Source: Deltaproteobacteria bacterium (GTDB taxonomy: Bacteria > Desulfobacterota > Desulfobacteria > Desulfobacterales > BuS5). Taken from it: DNA of 32,490 nucleotides. Shown here piece after piece: positions 3,801 through 18,004 of the stretch (its first letter is position 1; every line of letters begins with the position of its first letter). The stretch is from positions 1 to 32,490 of the forward strand of contig JAGGWL010000308.1 in NCBI GenBank assembly GCA_021157555.1, written 5' to 3'. The notes below the pieces were generated by a model. That model had not been told where the DNA came from. It made no database searches and saw nothing but the letters and a program-made list of their open reading frames with translations. Made by a program: the position numbers and the translations under genes.

Positions 3801-4692
3801 TAATTATTTTTCTGCCCGAACAGCGGGCAAAGATTTTTTTTTGTTCCGATGCAGATATCCTTGCGTATAATGGCAGGACGAAAATTCCTTTATATTTACG
3901 TCCCTCAATTAAAGTGCGTGTTTCATGTATATCCCGTTCGGTTGGCATAAAAATCAGGATGTCTCCAAAAGGACTGCCACTTTGCAGTTCGTCAACGGCC
4001 TGCGCTGCCATCTCGACATGGGTGAGCTCATCATTCAATTCATGCTTTCCGGCAAAATAACGCGTTTCAACCGGATAGACCCGGCCGGATACTTCAATCA
4101 CAGGAGCGTTGTCAAAGGCTTTGGAAAATTTCTCTGTATCTATTGTGGCTGAAGTTATAATCAGCTTCAGATCTTTTCTTTTTTTTGATAAAGTTTTTAA
4201 TATGCCGAGCACAAAGTCGATATTCAGGCTTCTTTCATGTGCCTCATCGACTATTAAGGTGTCATACATATTTAAAAAAGGATCATTCCTGGTTTCTGCC
4301 AGAAGAATTCCGTCTGTCATTATTTTTATAAACGAATTTTTGCTGGTCTTATCCTTAAATCTGATTTTATAACCAACAGAACCGCCCACAGCCGTTTCAC
4401 CCAGTTCCTCTGCAATTCGGGCTGCAACAGTTATAGCGGCTATCCTTCTTGGCTGGGTGCAGCCAATAAGGCCATTGATGCCGCGGTCGGCGGCAAGGCA
4501 GAATTGCGGGATCTGAGTGGTCTTGCCGGAACCTGTCTCACCTGCAATAATAACTACTCTGTTATTCCTGATGGTCTCTATAATTTCATCTTTTTTTAAA
4601 AAAACAGGCAGGGAGCGGTTGAATAAAGGTTTGGGAATGTTATTTTGGCGCCATTTGTTTTGTTTTTTGAAATACTGAGCAAAATTTAGCAT
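829..4692 (-). CDS. hrpA: ATP-dependent RNA helicase HrpA (DEAH box, DUF3418-type C-terminus)
   Basis: 1287 aa; GETGSGKTTQIPQF (Walker A), VDEAHERS, SAT, QRKGRCGR; length and architecture typical of HrpA. Confidence 0.95.
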   Translation of the reverse strand: MLNFAQYFKKQNKWRQNNIPKPLFNRSLPVFLKKDEIIETIRNNRVVIIAGETGSGKTTQIPQFCLAADRGINGLIGCTQPRRIAAITVAARIAEELGETAVGGSVGYKIRFKDKTSKNSFIKIMTDGILLAETRNDPFLNMYDTLIVDEAHERSLNIDFVLGILKTLSKKRKDLKLIITSATIDTEKFSKAFDNAPVIEVSGRVYPVETRYFAGKHELNDELTHVEMAAQAVDELQSGSPFGDILIFMPTERDIHETRTLIEGRKYKGIFVLPLYARISASEQKKIFARCSGRKIIIATNIAETSITIPGVKYVIDTGLARISHYMPGSRITSLPVVPVSQSSAEQRKGRCGRVENGICIRLFPEEDFNSRRLYTPPEILRANLAEVILKMLALNLGNIEDFPFIDPPEPKNIKDGFNLLIEIGAISSLQVLQKAKAPARRRRFKLTKYGRLMANMPVDPRLARILIEAGKYGCIQEMAIIASAMSIRDPRERPPEKAAAADQKHKEFVDPLSDFITLLNIWNTYNKTWQKVKTGNRMKKFCREYFLSYKRMREWVDIHSQLSNIIKEDKNNFQKKVEFSQSKSRQTDDDRHPLYEAIHKSILSGFLSNIALKKEKNFYKAAKGSEVMLFPGSGLFNKAGKWLVAFELIETTRPYARCVAAIDNAWIENAGKKQCKYTYNQPHWERNRGEVVAFEQVSLFGLIIITQRPVSYGRIDPAEAFKIFVNSALVQGDVKKILSFMQHNQELIEKIADMENRFRRRDILVSEEEMADFYMNRLPEIYNIRALEACIKKKGTDRFLRMETQDLLKYNPDTEELELFPDKISLGNIKFRCAYNFNIGKPNDGVTIKVPAALASSIPSESIDWLVPGLFKEKIAALIKGLPKKYRKKLVPIADTVDILIKEMPHGQESNPSSLFSSLGTLIDKRFKINIPASAWPDAGLPDHLKAVISITNEKGKEIRSSRDKAVLYGTASPQIDIRESKELRSIRKNWERSSIIEWNFPDLPESIPLNNKNMGNWAVYPALESMENKVNLRIFNNPETALQSHKKGIIALFSILFSKDLKFLKKRMKIPVNLQKASSHFGSASSLGNRFYQSAITSLFNKNIRSKKEFYSYAESVSPLILKKGDELLKTSIPVISAYHDTLLQIADFEKIQRFNEKNLLFLNGLSSEVKRLVPNNFMELYNTERLSHLVRYLKAISLRSQRAFIDINKDRARASLVTGYTDKLNSLLENLSPCTTKEKRSEVENFFWMIEEYKVSVFAQELKTVVPVSQKRLDTLLKKIERMI

Positions 4693-4853
4693 TAAAATAA
4701 TTTAGGCTGTATATATTCCTGATATGCCGCACATTTATTTTTTTGTTTACATTTTCTGCAAACGTCCACATGCTTGCGCGGCCTTCCTTTTTTGGGACAG
4801 ATAATATAAACTTGAAGTTTATGCGGTTTTATTAATTTGTCAAGTTGTTCCAT
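4692..4853 (-). CDS. Small Cys-rich (putative zinc-binding) protein, 53 aa, coupled to hrpA
   Basis: Not in supplied ORF track (below length cutoff). Translation MEQLDKLIKPHKLQVYIICPKKGRPRKHVDVCRKCKQKNKCAAYQEYIQPKLF*; GGAG Shine-Dalgarno upstream; stop TAA overlaps hrpA ATG by 1 nt (TAATG). Confidence 0.7.
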   Translation of the reverse strand: MEQLDKLIKPHKLQVYIICPKKGRPRKHVDVCRKCKQKNKCAAYQEYIQPKLF

Positions 4854-4870
4854 AATGCTGCTCTCCAAAA

Positions 4871-6403
4871 TTATATATCATCCCTTTGTAGCATCACGGT
4901 TTCTCCATATGGCGCTTGATCGTGCAAAAGTAATCGGAATTCATAGTTTGCAAAATGAATTGTATCGCCACTTTTAAGTCTGGCAGGTGTATTTTCCTGA
5001 ATTTTTCTTTTGTTAAGACGGGTTCCATTGGTACTTCTGTGATCCTCAAGATAATAATAACCGTTTTTATATTCAATAGTGGCATGAAGACTCGAAATAA
5101 ACTCCTTGGGAATCACAATGTCGTTGCTTGAATCTCTGCCTATACTTACTGATTTTTTATTCAAAACAAGAGATACAGATTCCTTGGTGATGATATGATC
5201 CACATCTATAAGCTCTGCCTGAAAAACAGGGTGATATTCCGGTACGCCATCAACCTGTATTTTTTTTGAATCATCGGGTGCAATTTCTTTTTTCTGCCGT
5301 TTATATATTACTATTAAAATTGCCAATATAATAAAAAGTATTATAATTATATAATAATTAATTGGTATTATAGAAAATCGCTGCTTAAAGGATTTATCAG
5401 TCTCTCTTGCTTTCGTCAGAGATTTTTTATTTTCTGTCTTTATTATTGAATCTTTTTTTACGATTAATTCAGGTTTTGGCTCTACTTTTTCTTTTTTTGG
5501 TGTTATCTGTTTTTCTATCAAGGACGAATTATCAGGCTCAACCGCCTTATGCTTATTTGGCAAAGGCGATAATTGCTGTGTACCCAATTGCGCTTCTTTT
5601 ACTTTTACTTGAGGTTTGCTTATAATTTTATTTATTTTTTTAAATATATCAGGAATCTCTTCAGCGTTATAAGCCCTGAAATATTCCCCGTTTGTTCTTG
5701 ATGCAAGTATTTGAAGCATGCGAACGTCGGCCTTATCAGTAAATGCAATACCAAAAATTTTAATGCCTGATTCTTTACTCTCCTGCGTTAAATTATTCTT
5801 AAGCCATGCTTCTCCTTCAATATCCCGTTCCTTGCTGCCGGTGTCTATAATTCCATCGGTTAAAAGAATAAGCACTTTCTGCGCTTCTTTTCTCCCATGA
5901 ATTTTGAGTTCATAAATTGCTCTTTCCACACCTGCAGGAGTGTTTGTAAAAAGCCCTTTATAATTTATGTTGCGCAGACTTTTAAGAAATCTTGCAGCGG
6001 CTGCCTTGTTATTCATATTTGCAAGCTGTTCAACCACTCTTGCATCCTGGTCAAATATTACCATACCAAGACGGATTTCTTCACTTGTATTATTGAGCAA
6101 CTCAGTAACAACATCTCTCGTGATAAATTTGGGATCATTTTTTTTCATACTCCCGGAATTATCCAGAGCAACTATAATATCAATTTTCGGTCCGGTTGAG
6201 GAACTATCCAGATTAATTGGGTTATGATCAGGCTCTGCTTCGATCACAACAGGGGTTTCCGAATATTTCTTTAAAAGATTTGATTCAGTTTTTATTATCC
6301 GGTCAGTATCTTCGGAAACGCCATAAGAGTTTACTGCAAAAACAATTGTTGTGAAGAGAATAAGATAGCTCAAAATAGATTGCTTGATTTTTTTACTTTT
6401 CAT
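4871..6403 (-). CDS. von Willebrand factor A domain + single TM + C-terminal FHA domain protein
   Basis: MIDAS-like DNSGSMKKNDP; TM INYYIIIILFIILAILIVIY; FHA core VSIGRDSSNDIVIPKEFISSLHATIEYKNGYYYLEDHRSTNGTRLNKRKI. The ORF opens at 6445, but MKSKKIKQ at 6403 starts a signal-like hydrophobic segment and is the better start. Confidence 0.85.
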   Translation of the reverse strand: MKSKKIKQSILSYLILFTTIVFAVNSYGVSEDTDRIIKTESNLLKKYSETPVVIEAEPDHNPINLDSSSTGPKIDIIVALDNSGSMKKNDPKFITRDVVTELLNNTSEEIRLGMVIFDQDARVVEQLANMNNKAAAARFLKSLRNINYKGLFTNTPAGVERAIYELKIHGRKEAQKVLILLTDGIIDTGSKERDIEGEAWLKNNLTQESKESGIKIFGIAFTDKADVRMLQILASRTNGEYFRAYNAEEIPDIFKKINKIISKPQVKVKEAQLGTQQLSPLPNKHKAVEPDNSSLIEKQITPKKEKVEPKPELIVKKDSIIKTENKKSLTKARETDKSFKQRFSIIPINYYIIIILFIILAILIVIYKRQKKEIAPDDSKKIQVDGVPEYHPVFQAELIDVDHIITKESVSLVLNKKSVSIGRDSSNDIVIPKEFISSLHATIEYKNGYYYLEDHRSTNGTRLNKRKIQENTPARLKSGDTIHFANYEFRLLLHDQAPYGETVMLQRDDI

Positions 6404-6414
6404 GTTATATATAC

Positions 6415-6438
6415 CTTTAGGAACAGGGCACGAAATAA
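6415..6438. repeat. Dispersed repeat copy A: CTTTAGGAACAGGGCACGAAATAA
   Basis: Near-identical to 7961-7983; diverged third copy at 28998-29018. Confidence 0.6.
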
Positions 6439-6493
6439 TACACAAACACTCAAATGTCTAAACTTTTTTTAAAATAACAAATTTTAAATAATC

Positions 6494-7945
6494 ATGTACC
6501 TTGCATATTATAATTTAAATGTAAAGCCATTTCAGATAAGCCCGGATCCCAAATTCCTCTGGCTGGGAGAGACTCACAAAGAAGCCCTTGCCATTTTAAA
6601 GTATGGAATTTTTGACAACAGGGGTTTTTTACTTCTGGTTGGAGATGTGGGAACCGGCAAAACCACACTTATCAACGGATTGTTAGAAAGTTTGAGTGAA
6701 GATACTATTGTGGCAACGATAACCGATCCTGGACTGGATGTACTTGATTTTTATAATTTTCTTGCAGTTAGTTTTAAAATAAATAAAAAATTTACCACAA
6801 AAGGTGATTTTCTTGTTCATTTTATCCATTTCCTTCACAAGGTTTATGCTGCCAATAAAAAGGTGCTGTTAATAATTGACGAAGCACAAAGACTCTCGCA
6901 TGAAATGCTGGAAGAGATACGCTTATTGTCAAACATTGAAAAAAAAGATGAAAAACTTTTAAATATATTTTTGGTGGGACAGAATGAATTAAATGAAACC
7001 CTTGCTGAAACAAAAAACAGGGCATTATTGCAAAGAATAACCACAAAATATGATATAGGACCTTTAAAAAAAAGGGAAATTAAGGATTATATTCAATTTC
7101 GTTTAAACGTTGCAGGCACTCAACGCAAGCTTTTCAATAGAATGGCAATTCGTGAAATCATTTCATTCTCACAATGTTATCCCCGCCTTATTAATGTTAT
7201 TTGTGATCATGCTCTTTTAACCGGATTTATAAAAGAAAAAGACAAGATTGATGCATCAATTATTAAAGAGTGTGTAAAAGAACTCAGTCTTTCCAAGGTA
7301 AAAAAGAAAAAACGTAGGAGTCTTTTGGGGGTAAAGGATACATCAATAGCCGGAACAGAAAGAAACCCCGCCAGATTAAAACCAGCTTTTTTAATTCTAA
7401 TCATTCTCCTATTGTTTATCGGCGGATACAATTATTTTTCAAATAAAGATAAATCAAAAACAGATATTATAATTACTGATGTTACTAAAGGTGGCAAGGT
7501 AAAGCCCGGCCTTTCAGTAAAGAATAATGTCAATCTGAAACAAAATAAAACAAATACCCCTCTGTTTAAGGATAAAGATCCTGATAAAACATTACCAAAA
7601 CCATATGCTGAGGATAAATTGACAATCAATATCCTTCCAAATTCGGATGAATTGTCTTCCGAATCATACAAACTGCTTGATAGATTCGTTCAAAGGATCA
7701 AATTATATCCTGATGCTGCAATAACAATAAAAGGATATACAGACTCTTCAGGCAGTGTCGGTTACAATAAACTATTATCAAAATTCAGAGCCAATAATGT
7801 GAAGAGCTATTTGGCAGGCCAGGGCGTTGATTCTTCAAAAATCAAGAGTATGGGTATGGGCCCGGCAAACCCCATAGCTTCCAACACAACGCCTGCCGGA
7901 AAAGCAAAAAATCGCAGAATTATATTAGAGTTGATACATCCCTGA
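6494..7945 (+). CDS. ExeA/GspA-type AAA ATPase with TM and C-terminal OmpA-like peptidoglycan-binding domain
   Basis: MYLAYYNLNVKPFQISPDPKFLWLGETHKEAL, Walker A GDVGTGKTT, Walker B VLLIIDEAQ; TM PAFLILIILLLFIGGYNYF; OmpA-like TITIKGYTDSSGSVGYNKLLSKFRANNVKSYLAGQGVD...GKAKNRRIILEL. Confidence 0.88.
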   Translation: MYLAYYNLNVKPFQISPDPKFLWLGETHKEALAILKYGIFDNRGFLLLVGDVGTGKTTLINGLLESLSEDTIVATITDPGLDVLDFYNFLAVSFKINKKFTTKGDFLVHFIHFLHKVYAANKKVLLIIDEAQRLSHEMLEEIRLLSNIEKKDEKLLNIFLVGQNELNETLAETKNRALLQRITTKYDIGPLKKREIKDYIQFRLNVAGTQRKLFNRMAIREIISFSQCYPRLINVICDHALLTGFIKEKDKIDASIIKECVKELSLSKVKKKKRRSLLGVKDTSIAGTERNPARLKPAFLILIILLLFIGGYNYFSNKDKSKTDIIITDVTKGGKVKPGLSVKNNVNLKQNKTNTPLFKDKDPDKTLPKPYAEDKLTINILPNSDELSSESYKLLDRFVQRIKLYPDAAITIKGYTDSSGSVGYNKLLSKFRANNVKSYLAGQGVDSSKIKSMGMGPANPIASNTTPAGKAKNRRIILELIHP

Positions 7946-8046: not shown

Positions 8047-8865
8047 CTACTTGGAACGATTATTTTTTTCCACGCTCCTTAACTTGTGTGCGGCAATTTT
8101 GGCTTCGCTTGATTCAGGGTATTTTCTTATCAATTTCTTAAAAATTAAACGAGCATTAGCAGTATCTTCCAAATTAAAAAAAGCAAAGCCCTGTTTTAAA
8201 AGAGCGGATTTAACTTTATTGCCATCAGGATATTTTTCAATAACTTTTTGGTATTCAAGTATCGCCTTTTTGAACGATTTCTTACGATAATAGACTTCAC
8301 CAAACCAGAACTGCGCATTATCCGCATTCCTTGAATTGGGATACTGTTTTAATAAAGATGTAAAACCCTCAATCGCAGCCTTATTATCTCCACTATCAAA
8401 CGCCTCTTTAGCTTTTTGATATATCCTGTTATCAGGAGTTTGTTCTTTAACAACTTTGCGATAAGTTTCTTTTTTACTATAAACATTACCAGGAACAGGT
8501 ACTAAAGCTCTCTTTCCCCTGTTGTTTGACTCTTCAAGAGCCATTATCCTGCTATTCAATAAGTGTTCAGTCTCTTCAACCCGTCCATATAAAAGCCGGA
8601 TTTCATCCCTGAGTTTGTCAATTTCGGCATTAAGGCTTGCAGATTGTTCCCTTAGCAGGTTATCTTCTTTTGAGCTGTTTTCAGTATAGCTTTTAATATT
8701 TTTAAAAAAACTTTGATTTTTGGACTCAAAATCCGAATAACGCCTTTCAAGTGATGCAAGTCTGTTATCAAGGATATAAACATCCTCTCTTAAAGCACAT
8801 CCTGATAAAGAAAAACCAGATATAAAGATAAAAAAAATGACAAAAAATAAAAAAAATGATTTCAT
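8047..8865 (-). CDS. ybgF: Tol-Pal system protein YbgF/CpoB (coiled coil + TPR), predicted lipoprotein
   Basis: 272 aa; FSLSGC lipobox, coiled-coil N-term, TPR-like YQKAKEAFDSGDNKAAIEGFTSLLKQYPNSRNADNAQFWFGEVYY; adjacent to pal. Confidence 0.9.
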   Translation of the reverse strand: MKSFFLFFVIFFIFISGFSLSGCALREDVYILDNRLASLERRYSDFESKNQSFFKNIKSYTENSSKEDNLLREQSASLNAEIDKLRDEIRLLYGRVEETEHLLNSRIMALEESNNRGKRALVPVPGNVYSKKETYRKVVKEQTPDNRIYQKAKEAFDSGDNKAAIEGFTSLLKQYPNSRNADNAQFWFGEVYYRKKSFKKAILEYQKVIEKYPDGNKVKSALLKQGFAFFNLEDTANARLIFKKLIRKYPESSEAKIAAHKLRSVEKNNRSK

Positions 8866-8943
8866 AAATTATTTTTTTGAACATAAAAGGCCGGAAAGCT
8901 ATAAAGCCTCCCAGCCTGCAAATAAGAATATACAACTCAAGAC

Positions 8944-9534
8944 CTATTCCAATACAAAATGTACCCGCCGGTTTTTGGCCCAGGCATCTTCATTATGTTC
9001 CAGGAATAATGGACGTTCCTCACCATAACTGATTGTTGTTAATCGTTCTTGCGCAATACCAATATCCACCATAAATTTTTTCACACTCTCTGCCCGTCTA
9101 TCGCCCAAAGCAATATTATATTCACTGGTTCCGCGTTCATCACAATGCCCTTCAATAATCACAGAAACATCCGAATATTGCATCATCCATATTCCTTTAA
9201 GTTTAAGGGTATCCTGTGATGACAAGGAAAGAACCGAGCTGTCAAATTTAAAATATATATCTTCATTAATAAATTTTTCTCTGGCAGCATTTTCCTGAGC
9301 AGCCCGCTCCTCAGCAGCCAGAGCTTCAGCAGCCAGAGCTGCTGCATCTGCTTCTGAAATAGTGCTTTCCTCAAGATCCCCAGCAATTTCTTCAACCTGT
9401 TGAGCGGTAGAATCTTCGGCCGTTTGGTCTGTTACCGGTGCAGTACTAACCACCTTTTTAGTACATGCTGTGGTAAACAGCATGACAGATACAAAAAAAC
9501 AGAACGTTAATGTAATCAATAATCTCTTTTGCAT
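8944..9534 (-). CDS. pal: Peptidoglycan-associated lipoprotein Pal
   Basis: Start [11 protein letters not shown] at 9534 with GGGAGGAG upstream; lipobox FTTAC; OmpA domain [34 protein letters not shown]. Confidence 0.93.
9311..9340. repeat. Perfect tandem 15-bp duplication in pal linker
   Basis: TCAGCAGCCAGAGCT twice (9311-9325, 9326-9340), encoding duplicated ALAAE-type pentapeptide. Confidence 0.85.
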
Positions 9535-9562
9535 TTTCTCCTCCCTAATTAATAAAATGAAT

Positions 9563-10888
9563 TCACCTATAAATATTCGCAGACCATGCAGGATTAGTTT
9601 GTTCGCCAGGCATGGAAAGTAAACGTCTCTGATCCGTTCCATAAGCGGTCATTACATATATACCGGCAGTGCCTTTACGAGTGGAACTAAACAGAATCAG
9701 ACTTCCATCAGGAGACCATGAAGGGGATTCATTATCATAGGAAGATTCTGTCAACCGCATAAGATTTCTGCCGTCAACACTAATAACAAAAATGTTGATT
9801 TCACCCTTGCACATACCTGAATAAGCTATCTTGTCACCTTTTGGCGACCAGGCTGGCTCTGTATTATATCGCCCTTGATATGTAAGTCTGCTTACATGTC
9901 CTGATCCCACATCCTTAATGTAAATCTGCGGAGTTCCATGTCTTTTGGAAACAAAGGCCATTTTTCTTCCATCAGGAGACCATGAGGGAGATGAATCTAT
10001 TCCTTTGTTTATAGTTAATCTTTTAGTTATTTTACCCTTTCCGGTCAACATATAAATTTCCTGGTCACCGGAAAATGAAAATGTTGCGGCAAGCTCAAAC
10101 CTGTTAGGAACCCATGCAGGAGTGATATTAATACCTTTTTTGGCAACAATAGTGCCACTTTTTTGTGTTAAATTTTTTATGTAAAGGTCAGGGTGGCCTC
10201 TTAAATATGAAGTAAAAGCCAGACACCTGCCATCGGAGGACCATGCCGGAGAGAGAGTTATATTTTTGTTAAAGGTAAATCTTTTGGGATTGTAACCATC
10301 AAAATCACAGATATATATCTCCTTATGGCCTGAACCGGTCGACACAAATGCAATCCTGCTGTCAAATATTCCCCGATTGCCGGTGAGATGCTCTATAATT
10401 TCGCTGCAAAACCTCCGGACTATCCTTCGCTGGTCGCCAAGCCTGCTTTTATACTTCTTGCCAACAATCAGCTTGCATTTAAATGTATCATACAACCTCA
10501 ATTCCATTTCAAGCCGGTTGGCGTTTTCAAGAATAGCTCCTGTTATCAACAGCTCCGCACCAATAGATGTCCAGTTATAAAATTTAATATTTGATGCTGT
10601 AGTGCCTGAGCTATGAGCATCTTCCAGAAAAGCCGCCCTGTCAAGCATTTTGAAATAACCGGTAAACTCCAAAGTTGAAGAAAACAAGTCAGAAGCTTCC
10701 TGGGCAGTCTTCCTTTCTGCAAAATTGCCTGAAAAGGTTTTAAAATAAGAAACAGCAACAGGAATTTTTCTTAAAAAGGGATTGGTTATATCTATATAAT
10801 CATATCCCGCAAATGCGATATGCGACCCTTCAAAACAAAATATAACTGCAACACAATATAATACTCTAACAAATAATTTTTTTAACAT
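9563..10888 (-). CDS. tolB: Tol-Pal system beta-propeller protein TolB
   Basis: 441 aa; repeated [14 protein letters not shown] / [14 protein letters not shown] propeller blades; position between tolA and pal. Confidence 0.95.
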
Positions 10889-10918
10889 ATCATCTCATAT
10901 CATCCGAAAATCTTACAA

Positions 10919-11797
10919 CTACCTGATACCTTCAGGCGTAAACCTTAACCCGACAATCACATAAGATTTATGAATTCCTGCAGGATGCGGGCGAACGGGA
11001 TTCGATTTTATAATTGCTTTTCTGGCAGATTCGTCCAAATAAATATTGCCTGACCTTTTATCAAACCATATATCCTGTATTTCACCATCCGGCATAATTT
11101 TAAACGCAATTTCAGCCATAAAATCAGTACGCCCTCCCGCCAGTTGTTCGGAAAATGCCCAGTTTTTTTGAACCTGATAAGCAACTTCAACCCTATAGAT
11201 ATTGATTAATTCGAGTCTTTTTTTTCCGGCAATACCATTAAAATTTTCTACTCTTACATCTTTTCCAGATTCTTTATTGTTCTGTTTCCCTGCCTCCGAC
11301 TTTTTGATTTCCTCTCTTAAACGTTCAAAAGCCATGGCAAGAGGATCCGATTCCGCCTCTTCAACTTTTTGTTCTATCTGTTGCAGAGACTTATTTTTGA
11401 GTGCTTTCTTTTTAAAAGCCTTCTCGTTAAGGACTTTCTTTCGTATTTTCTCTGGTTTATAAGTTCTCTTTTTTAGAGATTTTTTAACCCTTTTCTTCTT
11501 TTTTCCCAAAGGAACAGGTTTTGCGGATTTTTTTGCGGTGTTAACCGCAACTTCCGTGTCAGTCTTTGAATCTATCTTTTTGGGTCTAACAGATTTTGAT
11601 AAAATCTTGTTTTCAGGTAATGAAACAAGACTGACATTAATTACAGATGCTAACGGCTTGTTATCTGGTGTAAATTTCGGAGCAAAAATCAAAGCACATA
11701 TAAAAATCAGGTGAAATATGATTGAAATTGCATAAATGCAAAAAAACGTTTTTGGATCGTTATCTATCTCCTGATATAAGTGAGCATTAGAATACAT
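10919..11797 (-). CDS. tolA: TolA / TonB-family energy-transducing protein
   Basis: N-terminal TM, Lys-rich charged linker, TonB/TolA-like C-terminus (VQKNWAF...IAFKIMPDGEIQDIWFDKRSGN); synteny tolQ-R-A-B. Confidence 0.88.
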   Translation of the reverse strand: MYSNAHLYQEIDNDPKTFFCIYAISIIFHLIFICALIFAPKFTPDNKPLASVINVSLVSLPENKILSKSVRPKKIDSKTDTEVAVNTAKKSAKPVPLGKKKKRVKKSLKKRTYKPEKIRKKVLNEKAFKKKALKNKSLQQIEQKVEEAESDPLAMAFERLREEIKKSEAGKQNNKESGKDVRVENFNGIAGKKRLELINIYRVEVAYQVQKNWAFSEQLAGGRTDFMAEIAFKIMPDGEIQDIWFDKRSGNIYLDESARKAIIKSNPVRPHPAGIHKSYVIVGLRFTPEGIR

Positions 11798-11843
11798 TTT
11801 TTACCCAAACACGGGAACTCAAAAACTAATAATTAAACCTGAT

Positions 11844-12269
11844 TCAACTTTTTTCATTCTTTTCAGTGGTGACAGGCTCTGTAACCATCCCGATCTTTTC
11901 GACTCCTGCGCCTTTAATCTCTGACATTACCAGAACTACCCGTCCATATGGTATCTCTTTATCAGCTCTAAGAAAAACTTCGCGATCTTTCCGCCCTTCC
12001 AGAATTTTTGATAATTTTTTCTGAAGAAAATCAATTTCCACCTGATAATCGTTTATATGAATCCCGCCACTTTTATCAATAGTAATTACCAGATTCTCTG
12101 CCTGCACAGTAAGAGATTTGGCATCCGTCTCAGGCAAGGATACATCAACCCCTTGCATCATCATAGGCGCTGTAACCATAAAGATTATAAGAAGAACAAG
12201 CATAACATCTACAAATGGAGTTACATTGATCTCCGCCATAAGACTATCATTCTTTCCGTTGGATATCAC
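11844..12269 (-). CDS. tolR: TolR / ExbD-family biopolymer transport protein
   Basis: MAEINVTPFVDVMLVLLIIFMVTAPMMMQGVDVSLP. Confidence 0.95.
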   Translation of the reverse strand: MISNGKNDSLMAEINVTPFVDVMLVLLIIFMVTAPMMMQGVDVSLPETDAKSLTVQAENLVITIDKSGGIHINDYQVEIDFLQKKLSKILEGRKDREVFLRADKEIPYGRVVLVMSEIKGAGVEKIGMVTEPVTTEKNEKS

Positions 12270-13021
12270 TTATCAATCCTCTCCGTACTTAAAATATCTC
12301 TTTCAATTATATTCAAAAAATCAGATGAAAAACTCTGCAATTCAGACTCTATAATCCTGATCTTCTGCATAAAATAATTAAAAGCGATTACCGCCGGTAT
12401 TGCCGTTGCCAAGCCTGCGGCTGTAGCTACAAGAGCCTCTGATATGCCAGGTGCCACAACAGCCAGACTGGCAGAGCCCCTCAAACCGATTCCATGAAAA
12501 GAATTCATAATACCCCATACAGTACCAAAAAGGCCAATAAAAGGGGTTGTACTCCCTGTTGTAGCAAGGAAAGGAACCATTTGCATCATTCTGGTCGTTT
12601 CTGTGTTGATTGCCCGCCGCAAAGATCTTTGCAGATTATCAGTACCTGCAACTTTTGAACTCAAAGATAATACTTCAGGTTCCTGTGTTCCGGATTCATG
12701 CTTTTGTGGTTCTTCGCTTTTACCTGTATCCCCTGACAAGCTCAACTTTCTCAATTCAAGATATCCGACACGAAAAATTCTGGCAACAGGACAGCCATAT
12801 AGTTGCCTTGCTTTTTTAAAAGCATCGGAAAAATCTTTGCTCTTCCAGAAAAATTCTGTAAAAAGGATTGATTCTTTTATCGCTTTTCGCAAGTATCGAT
12901 ATTTTATAATAATAATTGCCCATGAGGTTATTGAAAAAAAAAGCAAAAGTAAAAGCACAAATTGAACCATGAGTCCTGCATTGGCTACCATGTGCAATAA
13001 ATCAATATCTGAAGCAGGCAT
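12266..13021 (-). CDS. tolQ: TolQ / MotA-TolQ-ExbB proton channel protein
   Basis: LATTGSTTPFIGLFGTVWGIMNSFHGIG...PGISEALVATAAGLATAIPAVIAFN; 4-nt overlap with tolR. Confidence 0.95.
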   Translation of the reverse strand: MPASDIDLLHMVANAGLMVQFVLLLLLFFSITSWAIIIIKYRYLRKAIKESILFTEFFWKSKDFSDAFKKARQLYGCPVARIFRVGYLELRKLSLSGDTGKSEEPQKHESGTQEPEVLSLSSKVAGTDNLQRSLRRAINTETTRMMQMVPFLATTGSTTPFIGLFGTVWGIMNSFHGIGLRGSASLAVVAPGISEALVATAAGLATAIPAVIAFNYFMQKIRIIESELQSFSSDFLNIIERDILSTERIDK

Positions 13022-16933: not shown

Positions 16934-18004
16934 ATGAATAATATTGAGCCACTTATCAAACAGTTAAAAGAAAATGAAAAAATAGCAAAAAAATTTTTTC
17001 AGGTTGAAACCAAAATTTTAAGTATTTTGAATTTTAAAGATTTTTTTGAGATTCTTTTAACTGAAATCAAAGAGATATTCAAGGTACCCCATGTATGGAT
17101 TTCTCTGATCAAAACAAGCGAGGTGACAAATCTGATTCGTCATCTGGAATCATCGAGAATATTAGGAAAAAATATAAATATAATAGATCAGAATTCTTTC
17201 CAGCAGCTTCTTGGCAACAATACGACACCCTTGCTCGCCAACGATAATTTAAAGCCTTTTTACAAAATTATAAACATTAAAAGAAAATATCTTATCAGAT
17301 CAATAGCCATTGCGCCAATTGCTATTGATGGAGAGGTGATAGGAAGTCTAAACCAGGCCGATTTCTCCCCCACCCGTTTCCAACCAGGCATTGACACAGG
17401 CCTTTTAGAACATCTTGCAGTAAAAATATCTCTGTGTTTATCAAACGTCACTGCCCATGAAAAATTAAAAATAATGGCCTATCACGATCCTCTTACAGGA
17501 CTTTTAAACCGAAGGGTAATGGATGCTGTCCTAAAAAGAGAGTTCACACGTTCCGAAAGGTATAAAGCTCCACTATCAGTGATATTCTGTGACATCGACA
17601 ATCTTAAACGAACAAATGACATGTATGGACATGATACAGGGGATCTACTTATAAAACATGTAGCAGACATATTGTTGAAAGAAAGCAGACAATCTGATGT
17701 TATCGCAAGATTTGCAGGGGATGAATTTGTGGTAATCCTTCTGGAAACCAAAAAAAAGGATGCTCTGAACCTAATTAACCGGATCAAACTTTACTGTTTT
17801 GCGCATCCCTTAAATATTAAAAAATTATCCATACCTGTTTCAATTAGTTTTGGATTATCATCTACAGAAAACAATTCCATTAAATCATCAAATATACTTT
17901 TAAAACAAGCAGATGACAATCTATATGCGGTAAAAAAAACAAGAAATAAAAAATCAGGTAAGGAGGAAGCTAATATAATTAATTTAGCTGTTCACAGAAA
18001 ATAA
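16934..18004 (+). CDS. Diguanylate cyclase with N-terminal GAF/DUF484-like domain
   Basis: HDPLTGLLNRRVMDAVLKREFTRSERY...FCDIDNLKRTNDMYGHDTGD; signature RFAGDEF; RQSD five residues upstream matches inhibitory I-site. Confidence 0.88.
   Translation: MNNIEPLIKQLKENEKIAKKFFQVETKILSILNFKDFFEILLTEIKEIFKVPHVWISLIKTSEVTNLIRHLESSRILGKNINIIDQNSFQQLLGNNTTPLLANDNLKPFYKIINIKRKYLIRSIAIAPIAIDGEVIGSLNQADFSPTRFQPGIDTGLLEHLAVKISLCLSNVTAHEKLKIMAYHDPLTGLLNRRVMDAVLKREFTRSERYKAPLSVIFCDIDNLKRTNDMYGHDTGDLLIKHVADILLKESRQSDVIARFAGDEFVVILLETKKKDALNLINRIKLYCFAHPLNIKKLSIPVSISFGLSSTENNSIKSSNILLKQADDNLYAVKKTRNKKSGKEEANIINLAVHRK

Follow-up and report, generated by a model that had tools for sequence, protein, structure and literature searches.

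In the threonine-phosphorylation pathway of the type VI secretion system (T6SS), TssL, a bitopic protein whose periplasmic domain binds peptidoglycan, is a substrate of the kinase PpkA, and the phosphothreonine so formed is bound by Fha (PMC3953482); PpkA of P. aeruginosa has a VWA domain (PMC1262709). Peptidoglycan drives formation of ExeA-ExeB multimers, which are required for secretin assembly (PMC4098917). In Sulfolobus, the FHA domain of ArnA binds the C-terminus of ArnB, which carries phosphorylation sites (PMC6509490, PMC12852372), and in MoxR-VWA pairs there is a co-chaperone contact between MoxR and the VWA protein (PMC7159879). Here, we analyze a 32,490-nucleotide stretch of DNA (contig JAGGWL010000308.1, hereafter the window) in which two divergent genes encode a protein with a VWA domain, a transmembrane (TM) segment and an FHA domain, and a protein with an AAA ATPase module, a TM segment and an OmpA-like domain. 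The two genes form a conserved unit, and gene order and co-occurrence link a family of Ser/Thr kinases with three TM segments to them. The features of the pair are:

4871..6403 (-), VWA-TM-FHA protein (P0001), 510 aa, ATG start
6320..6403 (-), its N-terminal signal segment, residues 1-28 (hydropathy and sequence)
5639..6181 (-), its VWA domain, residues 75-255, predicted periplasmic (PF00092, 5.1e-19)
5291..5365 (-), its single TM helix, residues 347-371, after a disordered linker (hydropathy, AlphaFold)
4952..5149 (-), its FHA domain, residues 419-484, predicted cytoplasmic (PF00498, 2.2e-21)
4874..4912 (-), its conserved disordered tail APYGETVMLQ with candidate phospho-acceptor Thr502
6404..6493, shared divergent intergenic region, 90 bp between the two ATGs
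6494..7945 (+), AAA-TM-OmpA protein (P0002), 483 aa
6494..7291 (+), its ExeA/PEP-CTERM-type AAA module, residues 1-266 (Pfam AAA_22, 1.1e-26)
7385..7441 (+), its single TM segment, residues 298-316 (hydropathy), preceded by a Lys/Arg-rich stretch
7637..7915 (+), its OmpA-like peptidoglycan-binding domain, residues 382-474 (PF00691, 1.1e-19)

Architecture of the two proteins and comparison with described systems

A preliminary description made from the window alone had given the coordinates of the two genes, their divergence across a short shared gap and the order of their domains; open reading frames (ORFs), Pfam searches and hydropathy analysis bear it out, with all four domains called at E-values of 1e-19 to 1e-26. 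The VWA-FHA gene could also start at a TTG at position 6445, which is less likely than the ATG at 6403, since the latter yields a clean signal sequence. The metal ion-dependent adhesion site (MIDAS) of the VWA domain is complete (D81-x-S83-x-S85, T153/T155 and D183), and the FHA domain keeps the phosphothreonine-binding residues R423, S437, H440 and N459. Hydropathy places the signal segment at residues 6-24 and the TM segment at 348-366. The AlphaFold model of this protein comprises a VWA domain (74-262), a TM helix (347-371) and an FHA sandwich (396-493), with linker and tail disordered; the predicted VWA fold has structure matches to many VWA domains. In the AAA-OmpA protein, the Walker A (50-57) and Walker B (125-131) motifs are intact, and the OmpA domain keeps Asp417 and Arg432. 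These are 15 residues apart, a spacing that is the rule for peptidoglycan-binding OmpA domains. The AlphaFold model of this second protein, built from two sequences, had a pLDDT of 45 and was not used. Hydropathy, the signal segment, flanking charges and the shallow model of the VWA-FHA protein favour a topology in which the VWA and OmpA domains would be periplasmic and the FHA and AAA domains cytoplasmic.

The T6SS pathway is similar in its membrane-bound Hanks-type kinase, FHA protein and VWA domain, but the fusions differ: here, VWA is joined to FHA and AAA to OmpA, and the kinase described below has three TM segments only. A Ser/Thr kinase is adjacent to the pair in family f51, present as a relic in family f22 and represented by an orthologue in the window's own genome. 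The VWA-FHA protein scores 62.4 bits against the TagH/Fha model TIGR03354, under its cut-off of 120.25, and the AAA-OmpA protein scores 58.4 bits against the TssL model TIGR03350, under its cut-off of 139.8 and in the OmpA part only. ExeA/GspA likewise has a cytoplasmic ATPase, one TM segment and a periplasmic peptidoglycan-binding domain, and its partner has one TM segment and a large periplasmic domain (PMC4098917); the differences are the OmpA type of the domain found here, the VWA-TM-FHA partner in place of ExeB, and the lack of gsp genes at the pair loci. The label “ExeA-type” used earlier for the ATPase is loose: among named families, the XrtA/PEP-CTERM ATPase TIGR03015 comes closest (260.8 bits over residues 1-265), and its curated cut-off of 324.5 is not reached. 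The protein differs from that family in having a TM segment and an OmpA domain, and the window contains no exosortase cluster.

A kinase controls the binding of ArnA (FHA) to ArnB (VWA) by phosphorylating a C-terminal region. The phosphothreonine-binding residues and the complete MIDAS of the VWA-FHA protein are in line with such a system; ArnA is among the sequence matches of its FHA domain and ArnAB among the structure matches. However, the Arn proteins are separate and regulate archaellum expression, whereas here one membrane-spanning protein carries VWA outside and FHA inside. In MoxR-VWA systems (RavA-ViaA, MoxR-VWA ternary systems, BatA/BatB), an AAA ATPase gene also stands beside a VWA gene, and the preliminary description had named them as a precedent. 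This identity was rejected: AAA_22 is the best match of the ATPase, no MoxR-type AAA_3 domain is called in it, and the co-chaperone contact would not be possible, since the predicted topology has the membrane between VWA and AAA. By analogy, the pair is like ExeAB and the T6SS threonine-phosphorylation pathway with their domains shuffled. The suggestion that the system is undescribed is plausible, but is qualified by the T6SS resemblance. Our literature searches found no paper describing this exact set (subscription-only papers were outside their scope).

Conservation of the pair and its kinase family

Proteins like the VWA-FHA protein were found in 15 of 146 genomes that sample the order evenly and ATPases like the AAA-OmpA protein in 60; the majority of genomes compared in this work are incomplete metagenome-assembled genomes (MAGs). 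Eight of the 15 have the two genes side by side in divergent orientation: three species of the window's genus and genomes G021, G051, G100, G135 and G079, which together span four families (f1, f22, f51 and f72) of one order. The gap between the start codons as called varies from 87 to 328 bp; no conserved element was seen in the gaps by eye, and counts of promoter-like sequences equal those of shuffled ones. The flanking genes differ at every pair locus, even within the genus: hrpA and tol-pal in the window; a transposase gene, an EF-G-type gene and others in G049. Recurrence in eight genomes of four families with different flanks makes the divergent adjacency more than chance.

In a sample of 390 genomes of the class, 22 further genomes encode VWA-FHA proteins, and in the 18 of them whose VWA-FHA context was readable, no AAA-OmpA gene is adjacent. 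The phylum sample (395 genomes) contained only one VWA-FHA genome besides the window's own. A ninth pair, from a distant MAG (CP070689.1, bin63, locus L079), was among the matches listed in a search of public contigs with the VWA-FHA alignment. There, the AAA-OmpA gene (8280-9839) and the VWA-FHA gene (9836-11182) share a strand, with an overlap of 4 nt; the AAA N-terminus is partly masked in the record. VWA motifs are generic; VWA-FHA loci L080, L082, L083 and L084 were also among the matches listed. Thus, the pair is adjacent in nine genomes, and the possibility, raised at the outset, that the two genes are rarely neighbours in relatives does not hold.

In the tree of AAA-OmpA proteins, the eight divergent-pair partners group as a clade (86/81) with a single unpaired protein as sister, and the bin63 ATPase is placed outside it. 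In the VWA-FHA tree, the eight partners also form a clade (95/80), which bin63 and two f42 proteins adjoin (82/90). Sub-groups (G000,(G049,G098)) and (G135,(G051,G100)) are common to both trees. It follows from the matching clades and sub-groups that the pair was inherited together; the link between a VWA-FHA and an AAA-OmpA gene may have arisen twice.

The Ser/Thr kinase partner that the preliminary description proposed to look for was found. In G051 and G100, a Ser/Thr kinase gene lies past the 3′ end of the AAA-OmpA gene, in convergent orientation, at a distance of 13 bp (G051) or 508 bp (G100). Its product (418-419 aa; Pfam, 1.6e-59) has about three TM segments at the N-terminal end, and behind the gene are those for a DUF4388 protein and a longer kinase relative. 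In G021 (f22), the same position holds a kinase relic of 111-113 C-terminal codons, 64-67% identical, that has an in-frame TAG, is without its 5′ part and ends 20 bp from the AAA-OmpA stop codon. No kinase relic was found in the window by tblastn. The window's genome encodes five kinases over the Pfam cut-off. One of them, P0003 (contig C335), shares 59% identity with the f51 kinases along its full length, including the three-TM region, and its catalytic motifs are intact.

In the order sample, a search with the full-length kinase reached the N-terminus only in G000, G049, G098, G051, G100 and G021; the match in G005 and many others were discarded, as they cover the kinase domain only (query start about 111 or later). 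A profile of the three-TM region scored at least 120 bits in 7 of the 390 class genomes, six of which are pair genomes. The seventh, G364, belongs to f51, and its contig ends inside the second kinase, before the position of the pair. In the other class genomes, all matches are weak (28-60 bits), and almost all of them fall on stand-alone proteins about 95-120 aa long. Counted by genome, the co-occurrence of kinase and pair (6 of 8 pair genomes vs. 7 of 390) has a hypergeometric probability of 4e-11, which kinship makes too small; the fairer figure is that by family (3 of 4 vs. 3 of 73), 6e-5. We conclude that the three-TM Ser/Thr kinase family is tied to the pair by gene order and co-occurrence.

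Several further observations concern the kinase family. P0003 follows a related three-TM gene without a kinase domain (L137:6823-8339, contig C335); this relative is encoded by one ORF in G049 and G098 and appears as two ORFs (212 and 293 aa) in the window's genome. The long kinase partner has a TM segment, a TolA-like coiled coil and a conserved C-terminal domain. DUF4388 proteins of the f51/f22 kinase cassette are encoded at L051:2499-4154, L052:13208-14857, L190:215-1882 and L208:8586-10235, and that of L051 scores 38.0 bits, right at the cut-off, for an MshE-like cyclic di-GMP (c-di-GMP) motif. Membrane proteins of about 95 aa that are relatives of the three-TM region occur on their own in the class sample (e.g., G147:C10:29450-29692, L205-L207) and are common in f36.

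Unpaired relatives and neighbouring genes

The sequence [ED]T directly follows the FHA domain in 30 of 38 VWA-FHA proteins (12.1 expected from shuffled tails), and 28 of the 38 have a G[ED]T tail; in complete paired proteins, the tail reads GETVM[IL] or GETVKI. An acidic residue before the threonine and a hydrophobic one at +3 would suit both a kinase site and an FHA ligand. The tail pattern is only suggestive of a phosphorylated tail bound by FHA. A Burkholderiaceae locus (L084:690-4756) has genes for a VWA-FHA protein, an FHA-kinase and a PP2C phosphatase in a row, and in G131, the gene that comes after VWA-FHA encodes an FHA-kinase; both gene rows support phospho-signalling as the general setting of VWA-TM-FHA proteins. 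In another group (L123-L132, L119, L120 and L083; families f30 and f42 and a Myxococcales MAG), VWA-FHA proteins carry an extra C-terminal domain of about 200 aa with motifs like VSxTIVPT...DPVEIMSVxFL.

Among 29 unpaired relatives of the ATPase, 10 adjoin a gene for an unnamed 377-aa protein, usually together with a TPR gene, and this neighbourhood includes a second ATPase copy in the window's own genome (C247). The cluster TPR protein - 377-aa protein - AAA-OmpA ATPase recurs at L064, L065, L056, L153, L196, L220, L221 and L223; the 377-aa family has no Pfam match. A secretin gene is found in the region of two of the 29 (L066 and L152), so that a consistent link of the ATPase to gsp genes, which would have argued against a separate system, is not seen. 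Most of the 29 have neither the 377-aa gene nor a secretin gene nearby, some of the loci being short.

Adjacent to the AAA-OmpA gene and directly convergent with it is a complete tol-pal cluster (tolQ-tolR-tolA-tolB-pal-cpoB; window 8047-13021, minus strand). It was rejected as a functional link, since G049, from the same genus, does not have it next to the pair. The called pal ORF overlaps tolB by 80 bp, and pal therefore probably starts further in. On the other side, a Cys-rich 58-aa ORF (4692-4868, minus strand; C-x12-C-x2-C-x5-C-like spacing) lies between the VWA-FHA gene and hrpA and touches the hrpA start; neither Pfam nor NCBIfam gives a match for it, and the compared loci contain no relative. 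At 16934-18004 (plus strand), between sdhB and a ribosomal protein cluster, a diguanylate-cyclase-like protein with a GAF-like N-terminal part was recognised by eye.

Possible function of the pair

The reading we put most weight on, though tentatively, is that the pair is the effector half of an inner-membrane phosphothreonine relay. In this scheme, some envelope structure would be assembled or positioned on the cell wall under the control of phosphorylation. Either by itself or together with its long three-TM coiled-coil partner, the kinase would sense the envelope and phosphorylate a cytoplasmic threonine, most likely Thr502 in the GETVM[IL] tail of the VWA-FHA protein and/or a threonine of the kinase itself. 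FHA domains would bind the phosphothreonine and cluster the VWA-FHA protein, the kinase and the AAA-OmpA protein. The latter, held on peptidoglycan by its OmpA domain, would multimerise or hydrolyse ATP, as ExeA does with ExeB, and the VWA domain may capture a periplasmic or outer-membrane partner through its MIDAS. What the analysis establishes is the conserved unit, its link to the kinase, the intact motifs and the predicted topology, and we infer phosphorylation of the tail, clustering through FHA domains, the action of the AAA module and the capture of a periplasmic client by the VWA domain. The relay is favoured by the recurrent pair and its matching clades, the kinase link, the [ED]T pattern after the FHA domain, the intact motifs and the T6SS, ExeAB and Arn precedents. 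A more ambitious form of this scheme, possible but doubtful, is a stand-alone machine of one (probably desulfobacterial) order, independent of the type II secretion system (T2SS) and the T6SS. In such a machine, a split receptor kinase, made of the three-TM kinase and its three-TM coiled-coil partner, would activate the peptidoglycan-bound AAA-OmpA ATPase together with a VWA protein through phosphothreonine-FHA binding, and an envelope structure would be built or positioned.

A number of observations weigh against the relay. The AAA-OmpA architecture is common without VWA-FHA, and the threonine tail is also kept in unpaired VWA-FHA proteins and so is not specific to the pair. The pair genomes are not independent, 3 of the 8 belonging to one genus. 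In the window's genome, the kinase gene is not beside the pair, its place being occupied by the tol-pal cluster; in f51, the kinase gene is convergent to the AAA-OmpA gene and outside its operon; and pair genomes G135 and G079 (71% and 83% complete) gave no kinase match.

The ATPase could instead be an ExeA/GspA-type assembly factor for a T2SS or type IV pilus secretin, with the VWA-FHA protein replacing ExeB/GspB and phospho-signalling of minor importance. The layout is identical to that of ExeA (PMC4098917), the window's genome has three secretins over the cut-off, and unpaired relatives L066 and L152 are near gspD/gspE-like genes. We nevertheless consider this unlikely: no secretin or GspE gene was recognised at any of the nine pair loci, secretins are near just 2 of the 29 unpaired relatives as against 10 beside 377-aa/TPR genes, and the kinase and the FHA domain are left unexplained. 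It is also improbable that the OmpA and VWA domains merely report the state of peptidoglycan or the outer membrane to the kinase and the AAA module, as in an envelope-stress or cell-wall sensor with regulation, not assembly, as output. The architecture of the long kinase partner, the c-di-GMP motif in the DUF4388 protein of the kinase cassette and the tol-pal cluster adjoining the pair would suit a sensor, whereas neither a transcription factor nor a response regulator accompanies the pair, tol-pal does not stay beside it throughout the genus, and an AAA ATPase suggests work beyond sensing alone.

Overlapping promoters can preserve short divergent gaps, and each of the two genes is widespread without the other, as would be expected if they shared a promoter region and had unrelated functions. 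That they do so is hard to credit: in bin63, the genes form a co-directional, overlapping operon with a separately placed AAA lineage, which a divergent promoter cannot explain; the gaps vary widely in length with no evident conserved sequence while the flanks turn over; and the kinase co-occurs with both genes. Least probable is a detached threonine-phosphorylation module of a T6SS. It would have the same modules, namely a Hanks kinase, FHA, VWA (in PpkA), a TM protein that binds peptidoglycan and an NTPase (PMC3953482, PMC1262709), and the T6SS FHA protein TagH is the best NCBIfam match of the VWA-FHA protein (62 bits, under the cut-off of 120). However, the scores against the TagH and TssL models fall far short of the cut-offs, and the neighbouring genes that were scanned include none recognised as a T6SS core gene, the rest of the genome not having been searched for T6SS genes.

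To our knowledge, the action of kinases and FHA proteins on Gram-negative envelope assembly outside the T6SS is poorly known. Should the relay be as proposed, the parts of T6SS threonine phosphorylation (kinase, FHA, VWA, peptidoglycan anchor and ATPase) can reassemble into a separate heritable module, and the two pair genes with one or two kinase genes would be a compact set for a direct test of a phospho-controlled, cell-wall-anchored AAA complex.

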